Made by a program: the position numbers and the translations under genes. A stretch of 64,000 nt of DNA from Candidatus Lachnoclostridium stercoravium (lineage in GTDB: Bacteria > Bacillota > Clostridia > Lachnospirales > Lachnospiraceae): NCBI GenBank assembly GCA_019118365.1, contig DWZA01000091.1, positions 1 through 64,000 of the forward strand, given 5' to 3'. Below, piece by piece: positions 13,249 through 59,578 of this stretch (position 1 is its first letter; the number at the start of each line of letters is the position of its first letter). Under the pieces are notes generated by a model. It had not been told where the DNA came from and did not search any database. It was given only the letters and a program-made list of their open reading frames with translations.

Positions 13249-14751
13249 ATGAATGACCAGTTAATATCTGCCGCCCTTTACATTCGGGTAAGCACAGAAA
13301 AGCAGGAAGAACTCTCTCCCGATTCCCAGAAACGCCTGCTGCTGGAATACGCAAAGGGACATAGTATGACTGTATCTCAGGAACATATCTACATAGAAAA
13401 CGGCATATCCGGACGGAAAGCCGACAAACGGCCGAAGTTTCAGGCGATGATCGCCGCAGCCAAATCGGAGGAACATCCTTTTGACGTGATCCTTGTGTGG
13501 AAATTTTCCAGATTCGCCAGGAACCAGGAAGAGAGTATCGTATACAAGTCCATGCTGCGGAACAAGTGCCGCGTAGATGTAGTTAGCATTTCAGAACCGC
13601 TGATCGACGGCCCCTTTGGCGGACTGATCGAACGCATCATCGAATGGATGGATGAGTTTTATTCTATCCGCCTGTCCGGGGACGTGACCCGCGGCATGAC
13701 GGAAAACGCGCTTCGCGGCGCGTATCAGTGCCGCCCGCCTCTTGGCTACCGGATCCCTTATCATAAAGCGCCTCCGGAGATCATCCCTGAAGAAGCCGAG
13801 ATCGTCCGGATGATCTTCGACAAATATGTTAATGACCGAATGAGCATCTTTGCCCTTACCAAATACTTAAACAGCCTCGGCCTTAAAACGAACCGGGGAA
13901 ATCCATTTGAGAAGCGCGCCCTGGAATACATCCTGCAAAATCCCGGATATGCCGGGGATATCCGCTGGAACCGTACAGTCCATGGGACCAAAGAAGTACG
14001 GGATCCTTCTCAGTGGATCATCCGTCCCGGCCATCATCCTGCGATCATCAGTAAAGAACTGTTCCTTGCCGCCCAGAAGCGTTTTCACTCTGAACACCAT
14101 CCAAAGAATGCCAAACCGGCTGAAGCCGCAAAGCACTGGCTTTCCGGGCTTTTAAAATGCCCCTCCTGCGGCCGCTCTCTGTCTTCCTGCGTTATGCATC
14201 GAAAGACTGCTCCTGATACCTTTTCTTTCCAGTGCTGCGGCTATCGAAAAGGCAAATGCAGCCACAACTGTTATGTAAGGGAAGAAGAGATCGCCCCGGC
14301 AGTGTTAAAAGCTCTGGAAGACGCGGTCCGGCTCTGCAATGTAAATTATGTGGTACGGAAATGTCCTGACGGGAAGTATGAGAATGCAGAGCTGGCAACA
14401 CTGAAAAAGAATCTGGAACGGATCCGCCAGCGGGAAGCCCGCATGCGGGAAGCTTATCTGGAAGGGATCGACACGAAAGAAGAATACCGGAGAAATAAAG
14501 AGCTCCTGCAAAAGGAACGTGCCGGATTGGAAGATCAGATCGTCCGCCTGGATCAGGCTGCCTCAGATAAAGGCTCCGGCGGCGCCCGGATGATCATCCC
14601 GATCAGCAGCATTCTCGACATTCTGAAGTCTGACCAGTTCACCATGCAGGAGAAGAATACAGCCCTGAAAAGTATTGTTGAACGGATCGTTTTTGATAAG
14701 GGATCTCTGCACATCGATGTAGATTATTATCTGCCCGAATCCCTGCTGTAA
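13249..14751 (+). CDS. Large serine recombinase of element 1
   Basis: Site-specific recombinase of 500 residues. The N-terminal resolvase domain has AALYIRVSTEKQEE (nucleophile Ser about residue 13) and WKFSRFARNQEES. The Recombinase domain contains PPLGYRIPYHKAP. The zinc ribbon is LKCPSCGRSL to FQCCGYRKGKC (residues 303-340), followed by a coiled-coil-like stretch. SpoIVCA of the B. subtilis skin has the same length and plan. AGGTG six bases upstream sets the start. The gene ends 21 bp before the right core, so it is the element's own excisionase candidate. Confidence 0.93.
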   Translation: MNDQLISAALYIRVSTEKQEELSPDSQKRLLLEYAKGHSMTVSQEHIYIENGISGRKADKRPKFQAMIAAAKSEEHPFDVILVWKFSRFARNQEESIVYKSMLRNKCRVDVVSISEPLIDGPFGGLIERIIEWMDEFYSIRLSGDVTRGMTENALRGAYQCRPPLGYRIPYHKAPPEIIPEEAEIVRMIFDKYVNDRMSIFALTKYLNSLGLKTNRGNPFEKRALEYILQNPGYAGDIRWNRTVHGTKEVRDPSQWIIRPGHHPAIISKELFLAAQKRFHSEHHPKNAKPAEAAKHWLSGLLKCPSCGRSLSSCVMHRKTAPDTFSFQCCGYRKGKCSHNCYVREEEIAPAVLKALEDAVRLCNVNYVVRKCPDGKYENAELATLKKNLERIRQREARMREAYLEGIDTKEEYRRNKELLQKERAGLEDQIVRLDQAASDKGSGGARMIIPISSILDILKSDQFTMQEKNTALKSIVERIVFDKGSLHIDVDYYLPESLL

Positions 14752-44961: not shown

Positions 44962-46128
44962 TTATTCCCCTGAACAGAAATCAAGGGCATATTGGGCGTA
45001 AAGAGACGCGCCGATCCTTAAGCTGTCCTCGTCAATATCAAACATTCCGTGGTGGTGAGGGAAATTTTTGCTGCTGTCCGCAAACCCGCCTCCTACAAAA
45101 GCGAAGGAGCCTCCCGCTTTTTCAATAAATGCCGCAAAGTCCTCGCCTCCCATCACCGGCGGCAGGGCGGCAATGCTTTCGGCGCCAAACAGCTTTTTTA
45201 TACACCTTTTGGTAAATGCGGCTGCCTCTTCTGTGATCACCAGGGCCGGAGTCCCCTTTCTGTACAGGCTGACTTCACATTCCGCCCGAAAGGCGCGGGC
45301 TGTGTTTTCCCCGATCCGCCGGATCTGTTCCAGATACCCCTCCCTCACTTTTGCGTCAAATGAACGAAGATTTCCTTCTAACACCGCCTCGTCGGCAATA
45401 GTATTGAAACGCTGTCCGGCTGTCATTTTTCCAATGGTGACAACGGCGGCGTCAAGAGGAGACAGTTCGCGGCTCACGATCGTCTGCAGGTTCATTACGA
45501 CCGCGCAGGCCGCTACCAGGGCGTCCACGCCTTCATGAGGCATGGATGCGTGACCGCCTTTTCCCCGTACAGTCAGCTGGAACAGATCCGTCGCCGCCAT
45601 CCTGGCTCCCGCTTCGCAGGAGATCTTCCCCACTGGCAGGCCGCTCCATATATGGATGGCAAAGCAGCCGTCAAGGCCTTCCAGCCATCCTGCTTTTTCA
45701 AACTGTTCCAGGCTTCCTCCTGTCTCTTCCGCAGGTTCAAAAAACAGCCGTACGTTTCCGCACAGCTCGCCTCTCATCTGCATCAATATATTTGCCGCCC
45801 CTAAAAGAGCAGCCATATGTCCGTCATGGCCGCAGGCATGCATCACCCCCGGAACCTGGGAACGGTAAGGCGCCTCTGTCAGCTCCTGAACAGACAGAGC
45901 GTCCATATCCGCCCGGAGAGCGACCGTCCTGCCGGGTCTGGATCCTCTGATCGTACCGACGATCCCCGTTTCCCCTGTCCTTTCATATGGAATACCTGCC
46001 CTTTCTAATTCCTCCGCGATCCGTCCGCAGGTACGATATTCCTTTCCGCTCACCTCCGGATACCTGTGGAACTCTCTTCTTAATGATGTCATATACGGTT
46101 TGAGATTTTCCGCCATTGCCAAAATCAT
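44962..46128 (-). CDS. M20-family amidohydrolase
   Basis: 388 residues. Zinc-dependent amidohydrolase of the hippurate hydrolase / N-acyl-amino-acid hydrolase branch. Metal and catalytic stretches are ALRADMDALSVQE (residue 72), MHACGHDGHMAALLG (97-111), EPAEETGGS (about 134) and FPHHHGMFDIDE near the end, with a lid domain around 180-290. It is downstream of the cupin and M24 genes but separated from them by a terminator-like hairpin. It may act on N-acyl amino acids. The exact substrate is unknown. Confidence 0.9.
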   Translation of the reverse strand: MILAMAENLKPYMTSLRREFHRYPEVSGKEYRTCGRIAEELERAGIPYERTGETGIVGTIRGSRPGRTVALRADMDALSVQELTEAPYRSQVPGVMHACGHDGHMAALLGAANILMQMRGELCGNVRLFFEPAEETGGSLEQFEKAGWLEGLDGCFAIHIWSGLPVGKISCEAGARMAATDLFQLTVRGKGGHASMPHEGVDALVAACAVVMNLQTIVSRELSPLDAAVVTIGKMTAGQRFNTIADEAVLEGNLRSFDAKVREGYLEQIRRIGENTARAFRAECEVSLYRKGTPALVITEEAAAFTKRCIKKLFGAESIAALPPVMGGEDFAAFIEKAGGSFAFVGGGFADSSKNFPHHHGMFDIDEDSLRIGASLYAQYALDFCSGE

Positions 46129-46159: not shown

Positions 46160-46194
46160 AGAAAACCAGGCAGAACGCATACGCGCTCTGCCTG
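46160..46194 (-). terminator. Terminator-like hairpin after the cupin gene
   Basis: CAGGCAGAGCG and CGTTCTGCCTG form a stem, followed by GTTTTCTTGT on the minus strand. It may reduce read-through into the amidohydrolase gene. Confidence 0.7.
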
Positions 46195-46204
46195 AATCCT
46201 GGAA

Positions 46205-46564
46205 TCATTCTCCCTCGTGGTTATATAAAACCATCGCCAGAAAGACGAGGTCTTTGTCTCCGATATTTTCTATGCTGTGACTGCTTCCGTCCCTGCACTG
46301 CATCATATCTCCTGGATGGAGGACAGCTTCTTTTCCGTCGTCGTTTACTTTGGCCGTTCCTTCCAGGATATAATAGATCTCAAATTCCCCTTTATGCTCG
46401 TGATAGCCAATGGATCCTCCGGGCGGTATGGCCGCCTTTCCAAAGAAAGATCCGGCTCCGTAAGAATCTGCGGCTTCCAGGAATTTTACCGCGCTGACAG
46501 ACAATTTTCCGCCCCGCATATGTTCATAATGGTTGATCCCCATTTCTTTTTCCGTCCTGATCAT
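46205..46564 (-). CDS. Small cupin-domain protein
   Basis: 119 residues forming one cupin barrel. Motif 1 is GSIGYHEHKGEFEIYYILEG (metal His-His-Glu) and motif 2 is HPGDMMQCRDGSSHSIEN. Small stand-alone cupins can be isomerases, dioxygenases or ligand sensors. It lies between M24 and M20 hydrolase genes in a run headed by tryptophanase, so it may act on the same amino-acid-derived compounds. This is a contextual inference. Confidence 0.8.
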   Translation of the reverse strand: MIRTEKEMGINHYEHMRGGKLSVSAVKFLEAADSYGAGSFFGKAAIPPGGSIGYHEHKGEFEIYYILEGTAKVNDDGKEAVLHPGDMMQCRDGSSHSIENIGDKDLVFLAMVLYNHEGE

Positions 46565-46595: not shown

Positions 46596-47798
46596 TTAAT
46601 AATCGATACAGATCAGCTCCTGCGGGATATGGCTCAGCCGCCTGCCGCCTTCTTTTGTCACCACGAAATTATCTACGCAGATAGCAGCCGCATCTTTATT
46701 TTTGCACCTGGGGTGCATGGAAAAATACATATTTTCCTTTAACGTCATGGTTTCTTCTTCACAGAACACCGGGCGATCCACAATATCATAGCCCTGTCCG
46801 TGGGCGTAGAAATGGCCTTCCTGCGCGTATCCGTGCTCGTTCAGCCAGCGGTTCCCCGCCAGGAAGATATCCCCCGGCTTTGCTCCCGGAACGCACATGG
46901 CCGCCAGATCGTTTTCCAGCTTTACCGCGTCCTTCCAGGCTTTTTCCATAGCCTGCGACGGTTCTCCCATGGAATATGTCCGGCCCAGCTCCGCCCATAA
47001 ACCCCCTGGAGCCGCCAGTTCTACAAGGATATAAACATAATCGCCTCTCTGGATCGTGTTGTTCTGGTAAAGATAGAGATTTCCGCCCGGCGTTACCGGA
47101 TGGGCGCCTGTCAGCACCATAAAGTCCGAGCAGTACATATCATCCGCCAGATGGCGCAGGGCCAGGGACACTTCTCTTTCCGTACGCCCTACCCTCAGGA
47201 TAGAAGGCACTGCCGCCAGGATATCTTCATGGAGCCGGACTGCTTTTTCGCACTGTTCCAGTTCATAAGGGGACTTTACCGCCTTGATCTGGTCCATCAT
47301 ATCCGTAGCGTCCACAAAGGATACGCCTGTCAGGGACTCTGTCATATATTTATATACTCCGGCCGGCAAAATATTCATAGCCACAAATCCCACCCGTTTC
47401 CAGCCGTGGCGGCGGATGATCTTACAAAATTCTTCCGCCGGATAACGATCCGTATAATGGATCGAAGGCAAAAACGGCACGGAAATATTATCGATCACGT
47501 CCCGGCAGCAGAGATAGTCTCCGCAGGCGGCCCCTCCCCAGTCGCCGTGCCCTACGATGCTGATCCCTTCCTGGGAAAATAAAAATCCATGGGGATATAC
47601 CGGAACCTGAAGATCTGTCAGATATTTCTGCACGCCTCCGAAGATCTGGTTATCTCCCCAGAGAACGAGGCAGTCGATCTCCTGGCGTTTCATCGCTTCT
47701 CTTGTCGCCTTCCAGCGGCGTTCCATTTCTTTTTCGTCTGTACGGAAGCGGAACCGCCCCGGCCGGTCCGCTTCCATGGAAAATCTTGTCGCGCCCAT
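46596..47798 (-). CDS. M24 (pita-bread fold) protein with altered metal site
   Basis: 400 residues. A creatinase-like N-terminal domain (to about 170) and a pita-bread C-terminal domain. Aligned by eye, the five metal ligands of Xaa-Pro peptidases (D, D, H, E, E) are not kept. The first region reads GDYVYILVELAAPGGLWAEL, the His remains in YAHGQGYD, the first Glu position is His (FSMHPR) and the last is Asp (CVDNFVV). It is therefore more like metal-free or unusual relatives, such as creatinase-type hydrolases or lyases, than a peptidase. The substrate is unknown. Confidence 0.75.
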   Translation of the reverse strand: MGATRFSMEADRPGRFRFRTDEKEMERRWKATREAMKRQEIDCLVLWGDNQIFGGVQKYLTDLQVPVYPHGFLFSQEGISIVGHGDWGGAACGDYLCCRDVIDNISVPFLPSIHYTDRYPAEEFCKIIRRHGWKRVGFVAMNILPAGVYKYMTESLTGVSFVDATDMMDQIKAVKSPYELEQCEKAVRLHEDILAAVPSILRVGRTEREVSLALRHLADDMYCSDFMVLTGAHPVTPGGNLYLYQNNTIQRGDYVYILVELAAPGGLWAELGRTYSMGEPSQAMEKAWKDAVKLENDLAAMCVPGAKPGDIFLAGNRWLNEHGYAQEGHFYAHGQGYDIVDRPVFCEEETMTLKENMYFSMHPRCKNKDAAAICVDNFVVTKEGGRRLSHIPQELICIDY

Positions 47799-47822: not shown

Positions 47823-49184
47823 TTACACGATAAATCCCAATGTTCCGTACAGGATCGTACAGATCACAAGGGTGATCATACGGTAGGGAACCAGGATCTT
47901 TGAAAGATCTACCGGGTCTACTCCGGCGGAAGTGGACGGAAGGATGATATTATCTGAGATCGGTGAAAACTGATCCCCGAACAGCGATCCGCTGAGCATA
48001 GATGCCGTAGTCAGCGGAATGTCCGCGCCAACTGTCACAGCCAGAGGCATGCACAGCGGGACTACGATCACTGCGGAAGCGCTGAGGCTTCCTGTAGAGT
48101 AGGAAATGATACAGCAGAGCAGGAATGTGATCAGCGGTACCAGATCCTTGCTGATCAGGCCGCTCACCAGGCCTACCATATAGGCGGCAAATCCCAGCTG
48201 CCGTACGATCACGCCAAAGGCAAAAGCAAATACGAGGATCAGGTAGATGGCCGCCATATCCTGGAAGCCGCGGATAATGCATCCGCTCACTTTGCTGAAA
48301 GGCACGCTTCCCTTCAGAACGTCATAAACAGCCGCCGTAACCGTCCCGATCAGGATACCTGCGGTGATCGTAGGCTTGCCCTGCATGATAGATACCACCG
48401 CCAGGCCGATAAGAAGCAGCACGATGGGAAGGATAAAAGCCCAGATGTCCGCTTTTACGTCTTTTCCGCCTAAAACGTCCGACATTTCTTCATCGTCAGT
48501 AAAGACTTCTTCTGATCTGCTGTTTTTGATCTCCTCCTCGATCTTTTTCATCCGCCCCAGATCAGGGAATTTTCCAAAGGCGATCAGGCCTGCCATGATA
48601 ATGGAGATAAAGGCGAAGAAAAAGTATGGCCAGGCGGAAAGGTAGATCGAAAATCCATCCATGCCAAGGGATGTGATCAATCCGCTGATAAAGATAAGCA
48701 TCAGGCCGAACGGATACAGGGTACCGGTATTGGAACAGACAGATGCCACGATAAGCGCCGATTTCTCTTTCGGAAGCTTCGTCCTGTAAATAGCAGGACG
48801 CATAAAACGGCTGATACTGATCTGCCCTAATGATCCGGCAACTCCCAGCAGAAGGCTCAGGAAAAAGATGGATATCGCCGTCTGCCTTGCTGTTTTGATA
48901 TGCCTGCCAGACCATTCGGCGAACGCTTTAAATCCGCCTCCCTGCTTAACAAAGTTCAGCATAATGCCCAGCATCATCATACACATCAGGATGCTTCCGT
49001 TGCTCCCGATCCCTTCGATAAAGTAAGTGTCTATGATCGGCGGGATGAACCCGGCGCCATTAAGGATAATAGAACCAAGGACGATCCCCGCAAACAGGGA
49101 AGCAAGCACGTTTTTGCTCCAGAGCGCCAAAACGATAACTACAACCGGTGGGATTACAGATAGCCACGTATTCATACTCGTCAC
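47823..49184 (-). CDS. NhaC-family Na+/H+ antiporter-type transporter
   Basis: 453 residues with about eleven helices. NhaC/ArsB-like features are SNTGTLYPFGLMLIF, SYSTGSLSASAVIVVPLCMPLA and GSLFGDQFSPISDNIILPSTSAGVD, the last being typical of NhaC. A charged loop around 205-245 splits the halves. Members exchange Na+ and H+ or an organic substrate, for example malate/lactate or amino-acid products. Position right behind the tryptophanase gene suggests it may help move a related compound. Confidence 0.85.
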   Translation of the reverse strand: MTSMNTWLSVIPPVVVIVLALWSKNVLASLFAGIVLGSIILNGAGFIPPIIDTYFIEGIGSNGSILMCMMMLGIMLNFVKQGGGFKAFAEWSGRHIKTARQTAISIFFLSLLLGVAGSLGQISISRFMRPAIYRTKLPKEKSALIVASVCSNTGTLYPFGLMLIFISGLITSLGMDGFSIYLSAWPYFFFAFISIIMAGLIAFGKFPDLGRMKKIEEEIKNSRSEEVFTDDEEMSDVLGGKDVKADIWAFILPIVLLLIGLAVVSIMQGKPTITAGILIGTVTAAVYDVLKGSVPFSKVSGCIIRGFQDMAAIYLILVFAFAFGVIVRQLGFAAYMVGLVSGLISKDLVPLITFLLCCIISYSTGSLSASAVIVVPLCMPLAVTVGADIPLTTASMLSGSLFGDQFSPISDNIILPSTSAGVDPVDLSKILVPYRMITLVICTILYGTLGFIV

Positions 49185-49222: not shown

Positions 49223-50614
49223 TCAATCTGTGATCGGCTCCAGGTGAGCCTGGAAATGCCTGAGGACCGGAGGTTCCCATGTGATCCGGTATCCATGGCC
49301 GATCTCAGCCGCCCGGTCCCTGACTGCGATCAGGGCTTCCGCGATAATGTCCAGATGAGCCTGCGTATATACCCTTCTCGGAATAGCAAGTCTGGTAAAC
49401 TCAAAATCCGCATGCAGCTGTTTTCCGGTGTCCGGATCGTTGCCCAGCATATAAGAACCGATATCGCAGGCACGTATCCCGGCTTCTTTGTACAGTTCTA
49501 CCGCCAGCACCTGCCCTGGAAATTCATAGTAGGGGATCTGCGGAAACATGGCCGCCGCGTCTACAAAGACTCCGTGTCCACCTACAGGTGACTGATATGC
49601 AATACCTGCATCATCCAGCCGGGAAGCCAGGTATTCCATCTGCCCGATCCGGTAAGCCAGGTAATCTTCTTCGATCGCCTCATACAGTCCGATTGCTATC
49701 GCTTCCAGATCCCGGCCAGCTAATCCGCCATATGTATAAAACCCCTCGAAACTGATACAATTTGCCCGTATCTTCAGGATCAGCGGAGAATCGCCGTCTT
49801 TTACGCCGATCAGACCGCCCATATTGACGATCCCATCTTTTTTCGCAGACATGGTAAACAGGTCCGCGCAGGCGAACATTTCCCGGATGATCTCCTTTAT
49901 GCTCATATCCCTGCAGGCTTCCTCGTCTCTTTTTACAAAATAAGCGTTTTCCGCAAAGCGAGCCGCATCGATATCCAGCGGGATCCCGTATTTTTTGCAG
50001 ACCGCCGCTACCTGGCGCATATTTTCCAGGGAAACCGGCTGTCCGCCGGCAGAATTATTAGTAACTGTCATCACCACCAGGCCGATATTTTCCGCTCCCC
50101 GCTCTCTGATCAGTGATTCCAGTTTTTCCACGTCCATATTTCCCTTAAACGGAGCCCTTTTCGACGGATTTTTCGCTTCCTCCACCACGCAGTCGATGGC
50201 GCGGGCTCCGGCCAGCTCCACATGGGCGCGGGTCGTATCAAAGAACATGTTGGAAATGGCGAACTTACCCGGCCCAAGAAGGAGCGGGAACAATACCTTT
50301 TCCGCCGCCCGGCCCTGGTGCACCGGCTGGATATATTCAAATCCGAAAATATCCTTTCCTGCCTCCACCAGACGGTAATAGCTGGAAGCTCCTGCATAAG
50401 CCTCGTCTCCCTGCATGATGCCGCCCCACTGAGCCGCGCTCATGGCATTTGTCCCCGAATCCGTCAGCAGATCGATATAACAGTCTTCCCCTTTCAGACC
50501 GAACAGATTATAATGCGCTTTCCGGATCGCTTCTTCCCGTTCTTCTCTCGACAACATGTGGATCGTTTCTACCATCTTGATACGAAATGGTTCTGGTACA
50601 TATTTAACTGCCAC
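49223..50614 (-). CDS. tnaA: Tryptophanase / beta-eliminating lyase
   Basis: PLP enzyme of 463 residues cleaving tryptophan to indole, pyruvate and ammonia. [42 protein letters not shown]-like [11 protein letters not shown] and the PLP lysine in [15 protein letters not shown] are family marks. Several stretches follow tryptophanase rather than tyrosine phenol-lyase: [35 protein letters not shown], with Ile where tyrosine phenol-lyase has its substrate-binding Arg. Tyrosine phenol-lyase activity is still possible. No TnaC-type leader peptide was recognised. Confidence 0.88.
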
Positions 50615-50698
50615 AACTAAAACCCCCTCTCCTTTTGCAGCAATTTCTATAATTTAATCATATCATAACAAAAGAGAGGTGTATAATCTGAAAAATTC

Positions 50699-50726: not shown

Positions 50727-51632
50727 TCATTTTTTGTAATGTTCTTCCAGCAAGCCGACGAAGATCTCTGCTTCTGAAGACAGTCTTTCTTTGCGTCTCT
50801 TGATCCATCCCATCTCCACGGTGACCTCGCAGTTTTCTATCGGTATCACTCTTAAGCCATACCGTTCATAGTCCTGATGGCTCAGCCACAGGCTGAAGGT
50901 GAATATATCGGTTTCCTGCATCAGACTGATGATCGCCGCGCCGTTGTTCAGGTAGATCGTTTTCTGAAATTCGGATAAGCTGACGGAATCGATGATCAGA
51001 TAGGTGGTCAACGTGGAAAAGTAATCATCCGGCGGCCTTACCACCGTATACTCCAGCAGTTCCCGCATATTTACCGATTCCCTGTAAAAAAGGGGATTAT
51101 TTTTCCCGACCACAGCATACCAGGTATCCTCTGCCAGCAGACGAAATTCCAGATCGTGATAATCCAAAAGGCGGTGGACTTCCTTGCTCTGAGCATTATT
51201 GATATGTAGGACGCCGATCTCCGAGCTGAGGCCGGATACGTCCTCCACGATCTGGCTGATCCTGGATTCCCGAAGGGTGAACAAAATATTTCTCCCCTGG
51301 TAAATATTGTAATACCTGTTTAAAAGATCCGCCGGAATCAGGTTTGGATAAGCGGATACCGAGATCACGCTTGGGATCTCATCCGAAGAGATCTTGGATA
51401 TGAGATCAAACTGTTTCATGATATTTTTTGTGTACATGTAAAGCTTTTTTCCGTCCTCTGTCAGCGCCACTCCACGGTTATTCCGTTCAAAGATCTTAAT
51501 ATCCAGCTCTGCTTCCAGGCCGGATATCATCTTACTGAGGCTTGGCTGAGATACGTAAAGCAATTCTGCCGCGCGGTTCATACTGCCTGTCTCCGCGATC
51601 TGAAGAAAATATTTTAAATGCTGCAGCTGCAT
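50727..51632 (-). CDS. LysR-family transcriptional regulator
   Basis: 301 residues. The N-terminal winged helix-turn-helix reads LKYFLQIAETGSMNRAAELLYVSQPSLSKMISGLEAELDIKIFER, followed by a substrate-binding-like effector domain from about residue 90. It is directly upstream of tnaA on the same strand, with an operator-like dyad between them, so it is the probable activator of the tryptophanase-NhaC-M24-cupin run. The effector is unknown, possibly tryptophan or a related amino acid. Confidence 0.9.
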   Translation of the reverse strand: MQLQHLKYFLQIAETGSMNRAAELLYVSQPSLSKMISGLEAELDIKIFERNNRGVALTEDGKKLYMYTKNIMKQFDLISKISSDEIPSVISVSAYPNLIPADLLNRYYNIYQGRNILFTLRESRISQIVEDVSGLSSEIGVLHINNAQSKEVHRLLDYHDLEFRLLAEDTWYAVVGKNNPLFYRESVNMRELLEYTVVRPPDDYFSTLTTYLIIDSVSLSEFQKTIYLNNGAAIISLMQETDIFTFSLWLSHQDYERYGLRVIPIENCEVTVEMGWIKRRKERLSSEAEIFVGLLEEHYKK

Positions 51633-52597: not shown

Positions 52598-52810
52598 TTA
52601 AAGAGCTGTTTTTCTTTTGGCGGCGCGCAGGCAAGAAAAAGCGGCTACTTTGTAACAGACAAGTGTATCGGGTGCAAGCTGTGCTATTCCAAATGTCCGC
52701 AGAAATATATTGATATTTCGGGTAAACCGGTTGTCATCCGCCAGGAACACTGCCTGCGCTGCGGGAACTGCTTTGAGACCTGCCCTGCAGGAGCGATCGA
52801 ACGGAGGTAA
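52598..52810 (+). pseudogene. Ferredoxin-type 2[4Fe-4S] domain without a start codon
   Basis: The +1 frame after the flavin-protein stop reads YFVTDKCIGCKLCYSKCP and EHCLRCGNCFETCPAGAIERR, two complete CxxCxxCxxxCP cluster motifs. No ATG, GTG or TTG occurs in this frame between the preceding stop at about 52546 and the first motif. It ends five bases before the macrodomain ATG and contains its ribosome site. It is either a decayed fragment of a larger iron-sulphur protein or the end of a gene that lost its 5' part. Expression is uncertain. Confidence 0.6.
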
Positions 52811-52814
52811 CGCC

Positions 52815-53588
52815 ATGACGCAGAATGAACGGCTGGATTTTCTGATCCGCTATTTACTAAATGAACACAGGGAATACAGGGATATCCGGATGCCGGATGA
52901 TCTTTCAGAAAAGCGGCGGCTTCTACGCAGCCTGATGAACATGCGCCCGCCTGCTCCCGCCAGCGAAGATTTCCTAAAAGTGCAGGACGCTTACCTTGCT
53001 GAACGCCTTGCCGAGCGGGGCGTCACAAAACTGGCGGATCTGACGCCGGTACAGCCTGGCCTGTATCTCTGGCAGGGCGATATCACTACCCTGGCTGCAG
53101 ACGCTATCGTCAATGCGGCAAACAGCCAGATGCTGGGCTGCTTCATACCCTGTCACGGCTGCATCGACAATGCCATCCACACTTATGCAGGCGTGCAGCT
53201 TCGCCAGGAATGCGCCCGCATCATGGCCGGTCAAAGGGGCGAAGAGCCCGCCGGAAGCGCCAGGATCACAAACGCTTATAACCTGCCCTGCCGCTATGTG
53301 CTGCACACTGTCGGCCCGGTCATCTGTGGAGCCGTTACCAGAACAGACCGGGATCTGCTGGAAAACTGCTACCGCTCCTGCCTGGAACTGGCGGCGGAAC
53401 ACGGCCTGCACAGCGTAGCTTTCTGCTGCATCTCCACTGGAGAGTTCCATTTTCCAAATGAACCGGCGGCAGCGATCGCGGTCAGTACCGTCCGAGAATG
53501 GCAGCGGCAAGATCCAGATAGAATCGAGGTGATCTTCAATGTCTGGAAGGATAAAGATCTTGAAATCTACAAGCGCCTGCTCCGATAG
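52815..53588 (+). CDS. Zinc-containing macrodomain protein linked to SirTM
   Basis: 257 residues. A helical N-terminal region (LDFLIRYLLNEHREYRDI) leads into a macrodomain with NAANSQMLGCFIPCHGCIDNAIH (about residue 105), GSARITNAYNLPCRYVLHTVGP and CCISTGEFHFPN. The Cys/His cluster CFIPCHGC matches the zinc-dependent macrodomain class that removes ADP-ribose from proteins modified by SirTM. The start is set by ACGGAGGT. It overlaps the sirtuin gene by 50 bp. Its partner writes the modification that it erases. Confidence 0.87.
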   Translation: MTQNERLDFLIRYLLNEHREYRDIRMPDDLSEKRRLLRSLMNMRPPAPASEDFLKVQDAYLAERLAERGVTKLADLTPVQPGLYLWQGDITTLAADAIVNAANSQMLGCFIPCHGCIDNAIHTYAGVQLRQECARIMAGQRGEEPAGSARITNAYNLPCRYVLHTVGPVICGAVTRTDRDLLENCYRSCLELAAEHGLHSVAFCCISTGEFHFPNEPAAAIAVSTVREWQRQDPDRIEVIFNVWKDKDLEIYKRLLR

Positions 53589-54459
53589 TATCGCGCAGCT
53601 CAGACAAAAGCTGAATACGGCGGACGCAGTAGTGATCGGAGCCGGTTCCGGGCTTTCCACTTCCGCCGGATTCACCTATACCGGCGAACGCTTTGACAGA
53701 TACTTTGGAGATTTTATTCAGAAATATGGTTTTCGCGATATGTATTCCGGCGGTTTTTATCCTTTTAAATCGCTGGAAGAACACTGGGCGTACTGGAGCC
53801 GGTATATCTACATCAACCGTTATATGGACGCGCCCCGGCCGGTCTATAAAGAGCTTTTACAGCTGGTACAGGACAAAGACTACTTTGTACTGACTACTAA
53901 CGTGGACCATCAGTTCCAGAAAGCCGGATTTGACAAGCGCCGGCTCTTCTACACCCAGGGAGATTATGGGCTGTGGCAGTGCAGCGCGCCATGCCATAAA
54001 GAAACCTATGAAAATAAGGCTGCCGTCCGCAAAATGGTTGAGTCTCAGGGGTTTACCATAGACGCAGGAAGAAAGCTGATCCTGCCAAAACAGAGAATGA
54101 TTCAGATGGAGATCCCCTCTGAGCTGATCCCATACTGTCCCCATTGCCGCAGACCTATGAGCATGAACCTGCGGACAGACAATACCTTCGTCGAAGATGA
54201 GGGCTGGCATCGCGCCGCCGGGCGATATCGGGCGTTCTTGCAAAACCATCAGGACAAGAAAGTGCTGTTTTTGGAGTTAGCCGTTGGATCTAATACGCCG
54301 GGCATAGTAAAATTTCCCTTCTGGAGGATGACGGCGGCAAATCCCAAAGCGGTCTATGCCTGCGTCAACCTGGGGGAAGCTTACGCGCCAGGAGAAATTG
54401 CAGACCGTTCGATCTGCATGAATGAGGATATTGGCGAAGTATTAAAAAAATTAAAATGA
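53539..54459 (+). CDS. SirTM-type (class M) sirtuin, protein ADP-ribosyltransferase
   Basis: 306 residues. The Rossmann motif VVIGAGSGLSTSAGFTYTGERF (about residue 30) and LTTNVDHQFQKAGFDKRRLFYTQGDYGLWQCSAPCHKETYENK (about 110-155) are hallmarks of SirTM: TTNVDH replaces the TQNIDxLH of deacetylases. Zinc cysteines lie in CSAPC and CPHCRRPM. SirTMs ADP-ribosylate a lipoylated GcvH-like protein in oxidative stress. Neither gcvH-L nor lplA2 is in the window, so the target may be encoded elsewhere or differ. Confidence 0.87.
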   Translation: MSGRIKILKSTSACSDSIAQLRQKLNTADAVVIGAGSGLSTSAGFTYTGERFDRYFGDFIQKYGFRDMYSGGFYPFKSLEEHWAYWSRYIYINRYMDAPRPVYKELLQLVQDKDYFVLTTNVDHQFQKAGFDKRRLFYTQGDYGLWQCSAPCHKETYENKAAVRKMVESQGFTIDAGRKLILPKQRMIQMEIPSELIPYCPHCRRPMSMNLRTDNTFVEDEGWHRAAGRYRAFLQNHQDKKVLFLELAVGSNTPGIVKFPFWRMTAANPKAVYACVNLGEAYAPGEIADRSICMNEDIGEVLKKLK

Positions 54460-55266: not shown

Positions 55267-56898
55267 CTAAGGAAGCGGCGTTTCCTTCAGATATGGCCTG
55301 TATGGATCGGTGAAAGAAAAACAGATCGTCACCGCCCCGTCCTGATGGATGTAAATAGCCTCCACAAGAGCGGCAAGCAGCTCCCGATCCAGGTGTTCTC
55401 TCTCCTTTTCTTTAGAAAATACTGCCGGATACTGCTCGTCCGCGCCTGTTCCTGGGGCGGCAATTTCCTCTCTCAGGCTATCTATGGATTTCTGCAGCTG
55501 CGTACTCCGCGCCTTAAACCCTGCTTTCATCCTCTGGTATTCCTCTTCTGTGATCTCTCCCGCGCTCCAGTCTATATAAAGCTGATCTGACGCGCACACC
55601 AGCTTCTCCAGCTCCTTTTTTCTTGTCTCTATAAGGTTTCTGATCCGTTCCTGCCATGGAAAGGCCGAAGGATACGCTTCCGTTTTCCCTGCGATCTTTT
55701 CCATATCCGCTGCAGCCGCGATCTGTTTTCGGATCGTAATAAGCGCTGCCTTTTCCAGCACGTCCTCCCGTATGGTGTGTTTTGTACAGGCGGTTTTTGA
55801 CTGGCGGGAATAGGTGGAGCAGTTATAGTAAACGATATTTCTTGCCGTCTTGCGGGTCATTGTTTTTTTACAGTCGGCGCAGCGCAGAAAACCGGAAAAA
55901 AGATGGGGCGTTTTCCTGCCGGGAGGCACCCGTACGTTTCTCTGCTGCAGCGTCCTGGCTTTTTCAAAAGTTTCTTTGTCAATAACCGCTTCGTGGGTAT
56001 TTTCCACGAAATACCAGTCCCTTTCATCCACTGCCACTCTGCGGTGCACTTTATAACTGATCACCTTCTGTCTGCCCTGCACCATATTTCCAATGTACAT
56101 CTCGTTGGACAGGATCGCCCCTACGGTTTTTCCGCTCCACAGACTGTTGTCCCCGGAAACCTGCGGATTATAGTATTTCATACCTTTCTGTCTTTTATAA
56201 GCGGCAGGATTCGGGATCCCCAGCCCATTGAGACGTTTCGCGATCCCTCCTTTGCTCATCCTTTCATCCGCGAACCAGCGAAAGATTTCCCGGACAACTT
56301 CCGCGGCTTCTTCATCCACCAGCAGATGATTTTTGTCGTCCGGATCTTTTTTCAGCCCGTAAGGCGGAAAAGCTCCGATAAATTCTCCTTTTCTCCGTTT
56401 TGTATCAAACGTGCGCCTAACGTCGACGCTTGTTTTATAGGCGTACTGCTGGTTCAAAAATCCGGTTATGCCCACCTCCAGACTGTGCACGGCCTCCGGG
56501 TTTAAAAACGTATCGATCTTCGGTTCGTAAAGGGAAATAAAACGGGCGCCGTAAAGGGGGATAAACTCTTCAAGAAATTTTCCCTGATCTGCGCTGTTGC
56601 GGAACGCGCGGGAAAGATTTTTGGTAATGATACAGTTGATCCGCCCGCTTTTTACATCCTCTGTTAAACGCTGAAATTCCGGGCGCACATCGCCGGAGGT
56701 CCCGCTCCGCCCATCGTCGGTATATTCGTCCACAATGTGGTAATCGCCGTTGAAAAATCCTGGGATCTGCTCGTCAAGGATCTTCCGCTGGTTCGTAATA
56801 CTTTCGCTTTCACTGTTTCCATCGTCTCTGGAAAGGCGGATATATTTTCCCACCTTCCAGAAGATCGCTTTTTCACCGTTCTTTCTGCTCCTCCCCAT
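55267..56898 (-). CDS. Large serine recombinase of element 2
   Basis: 543 residues. The resolvase domain has VGKYIRLSRDDGNSESESI (nucleophile Ser about residue 23) and IITKNLSRAFRN. The Recombinase domain carries PPYGLKKDPDDKNHL. The zinc ribbon is LRCADCKKTMTRK to YNCSTYSRQSKTAC (about 350-385), followed by a coiled-coil stretch and a C-terminal DNA-interaction tail. It resembles TnpX-like clostridial recombinases and is only distantly related to the recombinase of element 1. It overlaps the small upstream gene by 26 bp. Confidence 0.92.
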   Translation of the reverse strand: MGRSRKNGEKAIFWKVGKYIRLSRDDGNSESESITNQRKILDEQIPGFFNGDYHIVDEYTDDGRSGTSGDVRPEFQRLTEDVKSGRINCIITKNLSRAFRNSADQGKFLEEFIPLYGARFISLYEPKIDTFLNPEAVHSLEVGITGFLNQQYAYKTSVDVRRTFDTKRRKGEFIGAFPPYGLKKDPDDKNHLLVDEEAAEVVREIFRWFADERMSKGGIAKRLNGLGIPNPAAYKRQKGMKYYNPQVSGDNSLWSGKTVGAILSNEMYIGNMVQGRQKVISYKVHRRVAVDERDWYFVENTHEAVIDKETFEKARTLQQRNVRVPPGRKTPHLFSGFLRCADCKKTMTRKTARNIVYYNCSTYSRQSKTACTKHTIREDVLEKAALITIRKQIAAAADMEKIAGKTEAYPSAFPWQERIRNLIETRKKELEKLVCASDQLYIDWSAGEITEEEYQRMKAGFKARSTQLQKSIDSLREEIAAPGTGADEQYPAVFSKEKEREHLDRELLAALVEAIYIHQDGAVTICFSFTDPYRPYLKETPLP

Positions 56899-58648: not shown

Positions 58649-59092
58649 ATGACAATTAATCAGATTTCTGTATTTCTGGAAAACAAACCGGGCCAGCTGG
58701 CGGAATTTACCCGTCTTCTGGAAGAAAACCGGATCGATATGCGCGCTCTTTCCATTGCTGAAACACAGGATTTCGGTATCCTGCGCCTGATCGTTGACGA
58801 TCCTTATAAGACCGTCAATGTGGCGAAAGACGCCGGCTATGTATGCGCTGTCACTCCGGTACTGGCGGTAGAGATCTCCGACAAGCCCGGCAGCCTGGTA
58901 AAGATGCTTACAGCTTTAGGCGAAAGCGGCATCAATGTAGAATATACATATGCTTTCATCACCAGGAAAAAAGACGTGGCATACATGGTATTCCGTGTAA
59001 ATGATCCGGAAAAAGCTTCCGGTGTTCTTGTACGCAACAAGATCCGCCCGCTGGCTCAGGACGATCTCAGCGTTCTGTTTGGCGGAAATTAA
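58649..59092 (+). CDS. Tandem ACT-domain protein
   Basis: 147 residues made of two ACT domains ([63 protein letters not shown]), each a likely amino-acid binding fold. AAAGGAG is nine bases before the ATG, so the first 13 codons of the track ORF are not used. Such proteins regularly follow paaK in Clostridia and probably sense an aromatic amino acid. The stop is 40 bp from the element's right core and no terminator was seen, so its transcript may run antisense into the collagen-like gene. Confidence 0.85.
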
Positions 59093-59578
59093 GTCTTTCC
59101 TGCGGCTGTGCGCATCCTGGAATGCCCCGGTCGCTCCGGTAGGCCCTGTGGGGCCGGTGGCTCCTGTTGTTCCCGCTGGGCCGGTTGCGCCAGTAGCTCC
59201 AGTGGCTCCTGCTGCGCCGGCTGGACCCGTTGCTCCAGTGGCTCCCGCCGGGCCGGTCGCTCCGGTCGGGCCGGTTACTCCGGTTGCTCCAGTCGGGCCG
59301 GTCGGACCTACATATCCCTGCGGTCCCATTGTTCCGGTCGGACCGGTGATCCCGGCGGCTCCTGTGGCCCCGGTCGCTCCGGTCGGGCCGGCTGGACCCA
59401 TTGGGCCTGGATAACCTCTTGGGCCGGTCGGGCCTGTTGGACCCATTGGGCAGGGGCAGGGCCGCGGACATGGCGCCGGACGGCAGCAGCAGCCTCTTCT
59501 GTTCTCTTCTTCTATGATCAAATCTTCTGATCGTCCATTATTTCTATTGCAGTATCCGTTAGGATAATTCTGAAACAT
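58916..59578 (-). CDS. Collagen-like (BclA-type) spore surface protein, N-terminal part (split by element 2)
   Basis: The genuine part is codons 1-146 (59578 to 59141). It has an N-terminal region with [15 protein letters not shown] (cysteine/proline-rich), then about 100 residues of G-P-T/G-A-T repeats. Beyond the core the ORF reads the noncoding strand of the ACT gene ([15 protein letters not shown]), so the last 74 codons are junk. Joined at the shared core to 55240-54659 it becomes a complete 339-residue protein. A sigma-K-like promoter lies upstream, which fits late mother-cell expression. Confidence 0.82.
59119..59140 (-). other. Right core and arm of element 2
   Basis: ACCGGAGC (minus strand, 59133-59140) matches the left core. 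GGAATGC at 59119-59125 is the inverted partner of GCATTCC at 55245, with weaker outer similarity (TGCGCA/TGCACA) beyond. Confidence 0.7.

Follow-up and report, generated by a model that had tools for sequence, protein, structure and literature searches.

A clade of M24-fold proteins with a conserved, putatively rebuilt metal site, one member of which is encoded in a tryptophanase gene cluster

Introduction

What becomes of a metallopeptidase fold when most of its metal ligands have been replaced? This question is raised by a gene for an M24-like protein that lies in a tryptophanase cluster in the window, that is, the whole 64,000-nucleotide stretch of contig DWZA01000091.1 from Candidatus Lachnoclostridium stercoravium analysed here. 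A preliminary description, made from the sequence, held that four of the five canonical ligands appeared changed and only the His region was kept, pointed to creatinase-like enzymes that work without metal, and suggested from the neighbouring genes a pathway for amino-acid derivatives. The positions at issue are well defined. In a Pyrococcus M24 dipeptidase, the conserved active-site residues are D215, D226, H290, E319 and E333 (PMC2814137), and in E. coli aminopeptidase P, H243 and H361 are second-shell His residues of a proton relay (PMC5774706). In a crystal structure of the lyase RdDddP, a further residue, D297, is a metal ligand (PMC4108388).

Results

The open reading frame starts with ATG and runs for 400 codons from 47798 to 46596 on the minus strand (Table 1). 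Its product scored 83.4 bits against PF00557 (Peptidase_M24, cut-off 23) and barely passed the Pfam cut-off for PF01321 (Creatinase_N), and it approached the cut-off of none of the NCBIfam models, reaching 37.2 bits vs 630 for PepQ, 28.5 vs 393 for PRK09795 and 41.5 vs 613 for the DoeA model TIGR02993. The NCBIfam DddP model NF043017 gave no listing for it and matched 4 of 21 clade members weakly (best E 5.7e-8). Structure prediction, proposed in the preliminary description as a check, yielded a pita-bread fold: the AlphaFold2 model, computed with 21 homologues as input, had a mean pLDDT of 88.7 and a pTM of 0.88. Foldseek searches with this model returned E values down to 2e-26, with X-Pro aminopeptidases and prolidases at the top, followed by creatinase and DoeA (TM 0.75-0.78 for each) and DddP. 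The fold and the PF00557 score above gathering threshold place the protein in the M24 superfamily. It is thus a member of the M24 fold that lies outside the X-Pro peptidase, DddP and DoeA definitions against which it was compared.

Table 1. Positions of genes, signals and proposed active-site codons in the window.
Feature	Position	Strand	Basis or remark
LysR-family regulator	50727..51632	(-)	PF00126 / PF03466
Promoter-like site upstream of tnaA, extended -10	50657..50685	(-)	consensus match 9/12 only
Tryptophanase (TnaA-type PLP beta-eliminating lyase)	49223..50614	(-)	PRK13238 715 bits, cut-off 285
NhaC-family Na+/H+ antiporter-like carrier	47823..49184	(-)	PF03553 119 bits
M24-like (pita-bread) protein, 400 aa	46596..47798	(-)	translation, Pfam, AlphaFold2 model, fold matches
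E260 codon, proposed metal ligand (DddP D297 position)	47019..47021	(-)	E 23/24 clade, Gly 8/8 canonical
E270 codon, proposed ligand (canonical second Asp)	46989..46991	(-)	E 22/24, D 2/24; canonical D 8/8
H333 codon, proposed ligand (canonical His)	46800..46802	(-)	H 23/24; canonical H 8/8
H362 codon, proposed ligand, in place of canonical Glu	46713..46715	(-)	H 23/24; canonical E 8/8
D376 codon, second-shell Asp	46671..46673	(-)	D 23/24 clade, 8/8 canonical; adjoins lost Glu
Small Cupin_2 protein	46205..46564	(-)	PF07883 66.6 bits
Terminator-like hairpin between cupin and M20	46166..46195	(-)	13 pairs, 8 G-C, T run
M20 amidohydrolase	44962..46128	(-)	TIGR01891 above cut-off

On one strand, the cluster reads LysR - tnaA - nhaC - M24 - cupin - M20, with gaps of 24-38 bp throughout the stretch from tnaA to the cupin gene, and the family matches agree with the neighbours first read from the sequence. 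The tryptophanase clearly belongs to its family: it matches 8sij ('Tryptophanase 1') over nearly its full length with 833 bits and, in an alignment to solved tryptophanases, keeps the SAKKD motif with the PLP lysine. Since it falls below both equivalog TnaA cut-offs (599/750 and 574/826 bits), its substrate need not be tryptophan and may be another compound. The hairpin between the cupin and M20 genes ranked first in strength among 14 hits (shuffle mean 7.3), a number that alone is not significant; because of its position, membership of M20 in the operon is uncertain, and M20 may form a transcription unit separate from the cupin side. Rfam returned no match.

Contig 108 of the window genome carries a second tryptophanase locus (L107:1-3703). 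It encodes a tryptophanase 69% identical to that of the window, an NhaC protein at 45%, a RidA-like protein and a related cupin, and it lacks M24 and M20. Because this locus has the other genes without M24, the core module in this genome is tnaA-nhaC-cupin, to which M24 and M20 have been added in the window. Neither the sampled genomes nor the loci that were fetched contained another tryptophanase-M24 operon; the linkage is peculiar to the window genome. This genome also carries a second, divergent M24 gene of the same clade (L002/L104), whose product has the same residue pattern and which lies near a DASS-like transporter, a similar cupin and an OFA-like MFS gene (names by sequence reading). 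Relatives of the window cupin thus occur near this paralogue and also near the clade members at L010 and L090.

We mapped the ligand positions by aligning a profile of homologues to solved prolidases and counting residues column by column in 24 clade members and 8 canonical proteins. The window protein shares with the M24B X-Pro dipeptidases and aminopeptidases (1wy2, 2zsg) the two-domain pita-bread fold, the family-motif residues K175, E179 and R273, and the His ligand. Unlike these enzymes, which hold a dinuclear center with five ligands (D, D, H, E, E), it has four of the five replaced: the first Asp is L258, the second Asp E270, the first Glu H362 and the second Glu V375, and only the His (H333) is retained. 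This bears out the original reading, whose quoted motifs are all present in the translation, and the alignment did not restore the canonical five at shifted positions. It revealed instead an extra conserved acid, E260, two residues past the lost first Asp. In the clade, the column of that Asp holds Leu, Met or Val and in one case Arg (n = 24), and the last Glu column holds Glu in none of the 24 members, with Cys (12 of the 24), Thr or other residues in its place. The positions aligned with H243 and H361 of E. coli aminopeptidase P are likewise occupied by residues other than His in the window protein.

E260, E270, H333 and H362 are common to 22-23 of the 24 homologues, most of which share 25-47% identity with the query, and for this reason the replacement pattern is more than chance. 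By these columns, the ligand change is a conserved alternative set rather than plain loss. A five-for-five exchange of ligands to E, E, H, H and D was also considered and was overturned by the profile alignment. D376 was rejected as a shifted fifth ligand on two grounds: its column is that of the Asp found directly after the Glu ligand in 8/8 canonical proteins, and a degenerate paralogue retains it. That paralogue (L014:10709-11911) is the third of three clade genes lying close together and has Q, D, N and G at 260, 270, 333 and 362; its orthologue in L009 is intact. The clade protein of L010 shows the converse, with E, D, H and H at the four positions and D376 lost. Together, these changes support a functional set made up of 260, 270, 333 and 362, with D376 outside it. 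It is this loss of the set as a whole in one protein, and of D376 in the other, that leads to the prediction of a one-metal, two-His/two-Glu site. In the AlphaFold2 model, the hairpin strands span 254-262 and 268-276, and from these limits E260 would lie opposite E270. E260 could also point away from a metal, and with Cys in 12/24 members at the lost Glu column, a different ligand arrangement in part of the clade is possible.

The position of E260 is that of D297 in the DMSP lyase DddP. A Ruegeria genome supplied the DddP sequence, which was verified by comparison with 4rzy and 4b28. It aligned with the window protein without gaps in the hairpin, pairing D295 with L258, D297 with E260, D307 with E270, H371 with H333, E406 with H362 and E421 with V375. 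Both proteins are thus acidic at the D297 position and have equal hairpin spacing, and DddP is itself a non-peptidase M24 enzyme. However, DddP keeps D295, D307, H371, E406 and E421 and two metals, whereas the window protein reads L, E, E, H, H and V at the six DddP ligand positions, and the two are far apart in the tree.

When the ligand columns were left out of the tree, the core 24 proteins grouped together with 100/100 support. Near this group, in a placement that is not firm, fell two acidobacterial proteins that share its residue pattern. A clade profile gave at least 315 bits for every pattern-bearing protein and for degenerate or truncated copies, and the next score was 196. Bacillota, Pseudomonadota and Thermodesulfobacteriota are represented, as is one contig of Bathyarchaeota. 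Among 299 genomes sampled from the family to which the window belongs, 3 carried a clade gene, the window genome being one of them. Among 289 genomes of the class of a Ruegeria genome there was one fragment only, a rarity perhaps overstated since only the best few candidates were scored. Copies lie in tandem or near each other in L009, L014, L016 and L017, and the tandem pairs are L014:9474-11911, L009:5623-8035 and L016:5555-9188; the second L014 copy has all four proposed ligands changed. The residues of the L014 pair suggest a pairing of catalytic and non-catalytic subunits. Two M24 genes of another branch from the window's family (L007:1483-2655 and L008:1438-2655) have lost the Asp pair, keep the His and have Asp for Glu, and the next gene downstream of each encodes a solute-binding protein. 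A DddP-sister M24 protein (L020:12566-13798), from a Peptococcaceae genome, is encoded 3.4 kb from a clade member.

Gene neighbourhoods were counted at 22 clade loci and 64 other M24 loci; the loci are partly related, so p-values are optimistic. A D-2-hydroxyacid dehydrogenase gene was nearby at 11/22 clade loci and 1/64 of the others (Fisher p 3e-7, with that reservation). Also enriched were TTT receptor (6 vs 0), cupin (4 vs 0) and CitE-like genes (4 vs 0). The amino-acid derivative pathway first suggested is possible for the window operon. Tryptophanase is not, however, among the genes that recur near clade members as a whole; these encode D-2-hydroxyacid dehydrogenases, carboxylate transporters, citrate-lyase-type enzymes and functions in aromatic catabolism. 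Of three plasmid copies, that of Aminobacter lies beside BKACE, P450 and SRPBCC genes, that of Rhizobium beside FAH, phenylpropionate hydroxylase, cupin and VOC genes, and that of Pacificitalea beside TRAP and amidohydrolase genes, so that annotated aromatic or oxygenase genes are near two of the three. In L017, a Rieske oxygenase gene (Pfam) immediately precedes one M24 gene. Loci from three Bacillota genomes (L011, L015, L106) contain the same cluster of malic enzyme, citrate-lyase subunits, CitE-like protein, clade M24 and D-2-hydroxyacid dehydrogenase, with a TRAP transporter also present at L015 and L106.

Discussion

We favor, at somewhat better than even probability, a non-peptidase M24/creatinase clade in which the two-metal site has been rebuilt, probably around one metal, and which has a role in carboxylic-acid catabolism. 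Without the first Asp and the bridging Glu, the clade proteins would have no second metal position. At the position that remains, E260, E270, H333 and H362 would probably hold one divalent metal (Mn, Fe or Zn), which, by analogy with DddP, would bind a small carboxylate-containing substrate and drive hydrolysis or elimination. Clade genes would serve the catabolism of imported carboxylic acids. In the window genome, judging from gene order in this one genome, an M24 gene would have been recruited to the operon that also encodes tryptophanase, the NhaC-type carrier and the cupin; its product there would most likely convert an imported amino-acid-related compound into the tryptophanase substrate or dispose of a tryptophanase product. 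More tentatively, at somewhat below an even chance, we propose that a widespread M24 branch has lost its dinuclear site and evolved a mononuclear two-His/two-Glu center, that its members are non-peptidases (lyase, decarboxylase or ring hydrolase) of carboxylate or aromatic-acid catabolism, and that the gene has doubled in some bacteria into a catalytic and a pseudo-subunit.

If the protein were instead a metal-free hydrolase of the creatinase or ectoine hydrolase type, the pocket would hold the substrate, and the conserved His and Glu would act as acid-base or nucleophile, as they could without metal. Non-canonical residues at the ligand positions are known in these families. Creatinase (1chm, 7yto) and DoeA (6twk) share the fold, are among the closest by TM and act on small molecules; creatinase was compared by fold and a weak phmmer match only (7yto, E 3.5e-4). 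The replacements in the clade, however, are good metal ligands that stand at or beside the old ligand positions and that changed jointly in a single degenerate paralogue, and in the fetched DoeA-like group (named by resemblance) a Tyr replaces the His ligand. We regard this reading as unlikely, though worth keeping in view. Of the creatinase-like, metal-free idea in the preliminary description, the replaced ligands have stood and the lack of metal is weakened: two Glu and two His that are conserved and change as a set fit a re-formed mononuclear metal site. A protein that still cleaves Xaa-Pro or other dipeptides through a tuned metal site would fit the best matches in sequence and fold, which are prolidases and X-Pro aminopeptidases, and the M20 peptidase-like gene nearby. 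With four of five ligands and both proton-relay His positions changed, NCBIfam peptidase models far off (37 bits vs 630 for PepQ) and neighbourhoods that are catabolic and not peptide-related, peptidase action is disfavoured by the residues and, as a whole, very improbable. The window protein appears not to be a peptidase, and it is probably not metal-free like creatinase.

That the protein is a non-catalytic partner or binding protein is improbable. Multiple copies in L009, L014, L016 and L017, one of them with the whole set changed, suggest that some copies are inactive subunits, but the window copy is the only one in its operon and has every residue of the conserved set, and conservation this strict speaks for active chemistry. 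Nothing found favors sequencing error or gene decay, a reading that has next to no probability and is refuted by the open 400-residue frame and a pattern common to unrelated genomes.

The rebuilt site that we favor has consequences for annotation. Three plasmid-encoded clade proteins are annotated 'M24 family metallopeptidase', which is probably wrong as to function, and a conserved rebuilt metal site in so common a fold points to an unrecognised enzyme activity in gut, soil and anaerobic microbes. We found no published account of this M24 group in a literature search that was incomplete and covered few subscription papers, and none of the naringenin and isoflavone cluster papers searched mentioned an M24 protein.

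Other features of the window were seen in passing. At 52710-54459 (+), a macrodomain-like gene overlaps a SIR2-like gene, as in macrodomain-sirtuin pairs (recognised by eye). Positions 58916-59578 encode a collagen-like protein of Gly-Pro-Thr repeats, the start of which is rich in Cys and Pro. Large serine-recombinase-like genes, also recognised by eye, lie at 13249-14751 and 55267-56898 and are possible marks of mobile elements flanking the region on both sides.
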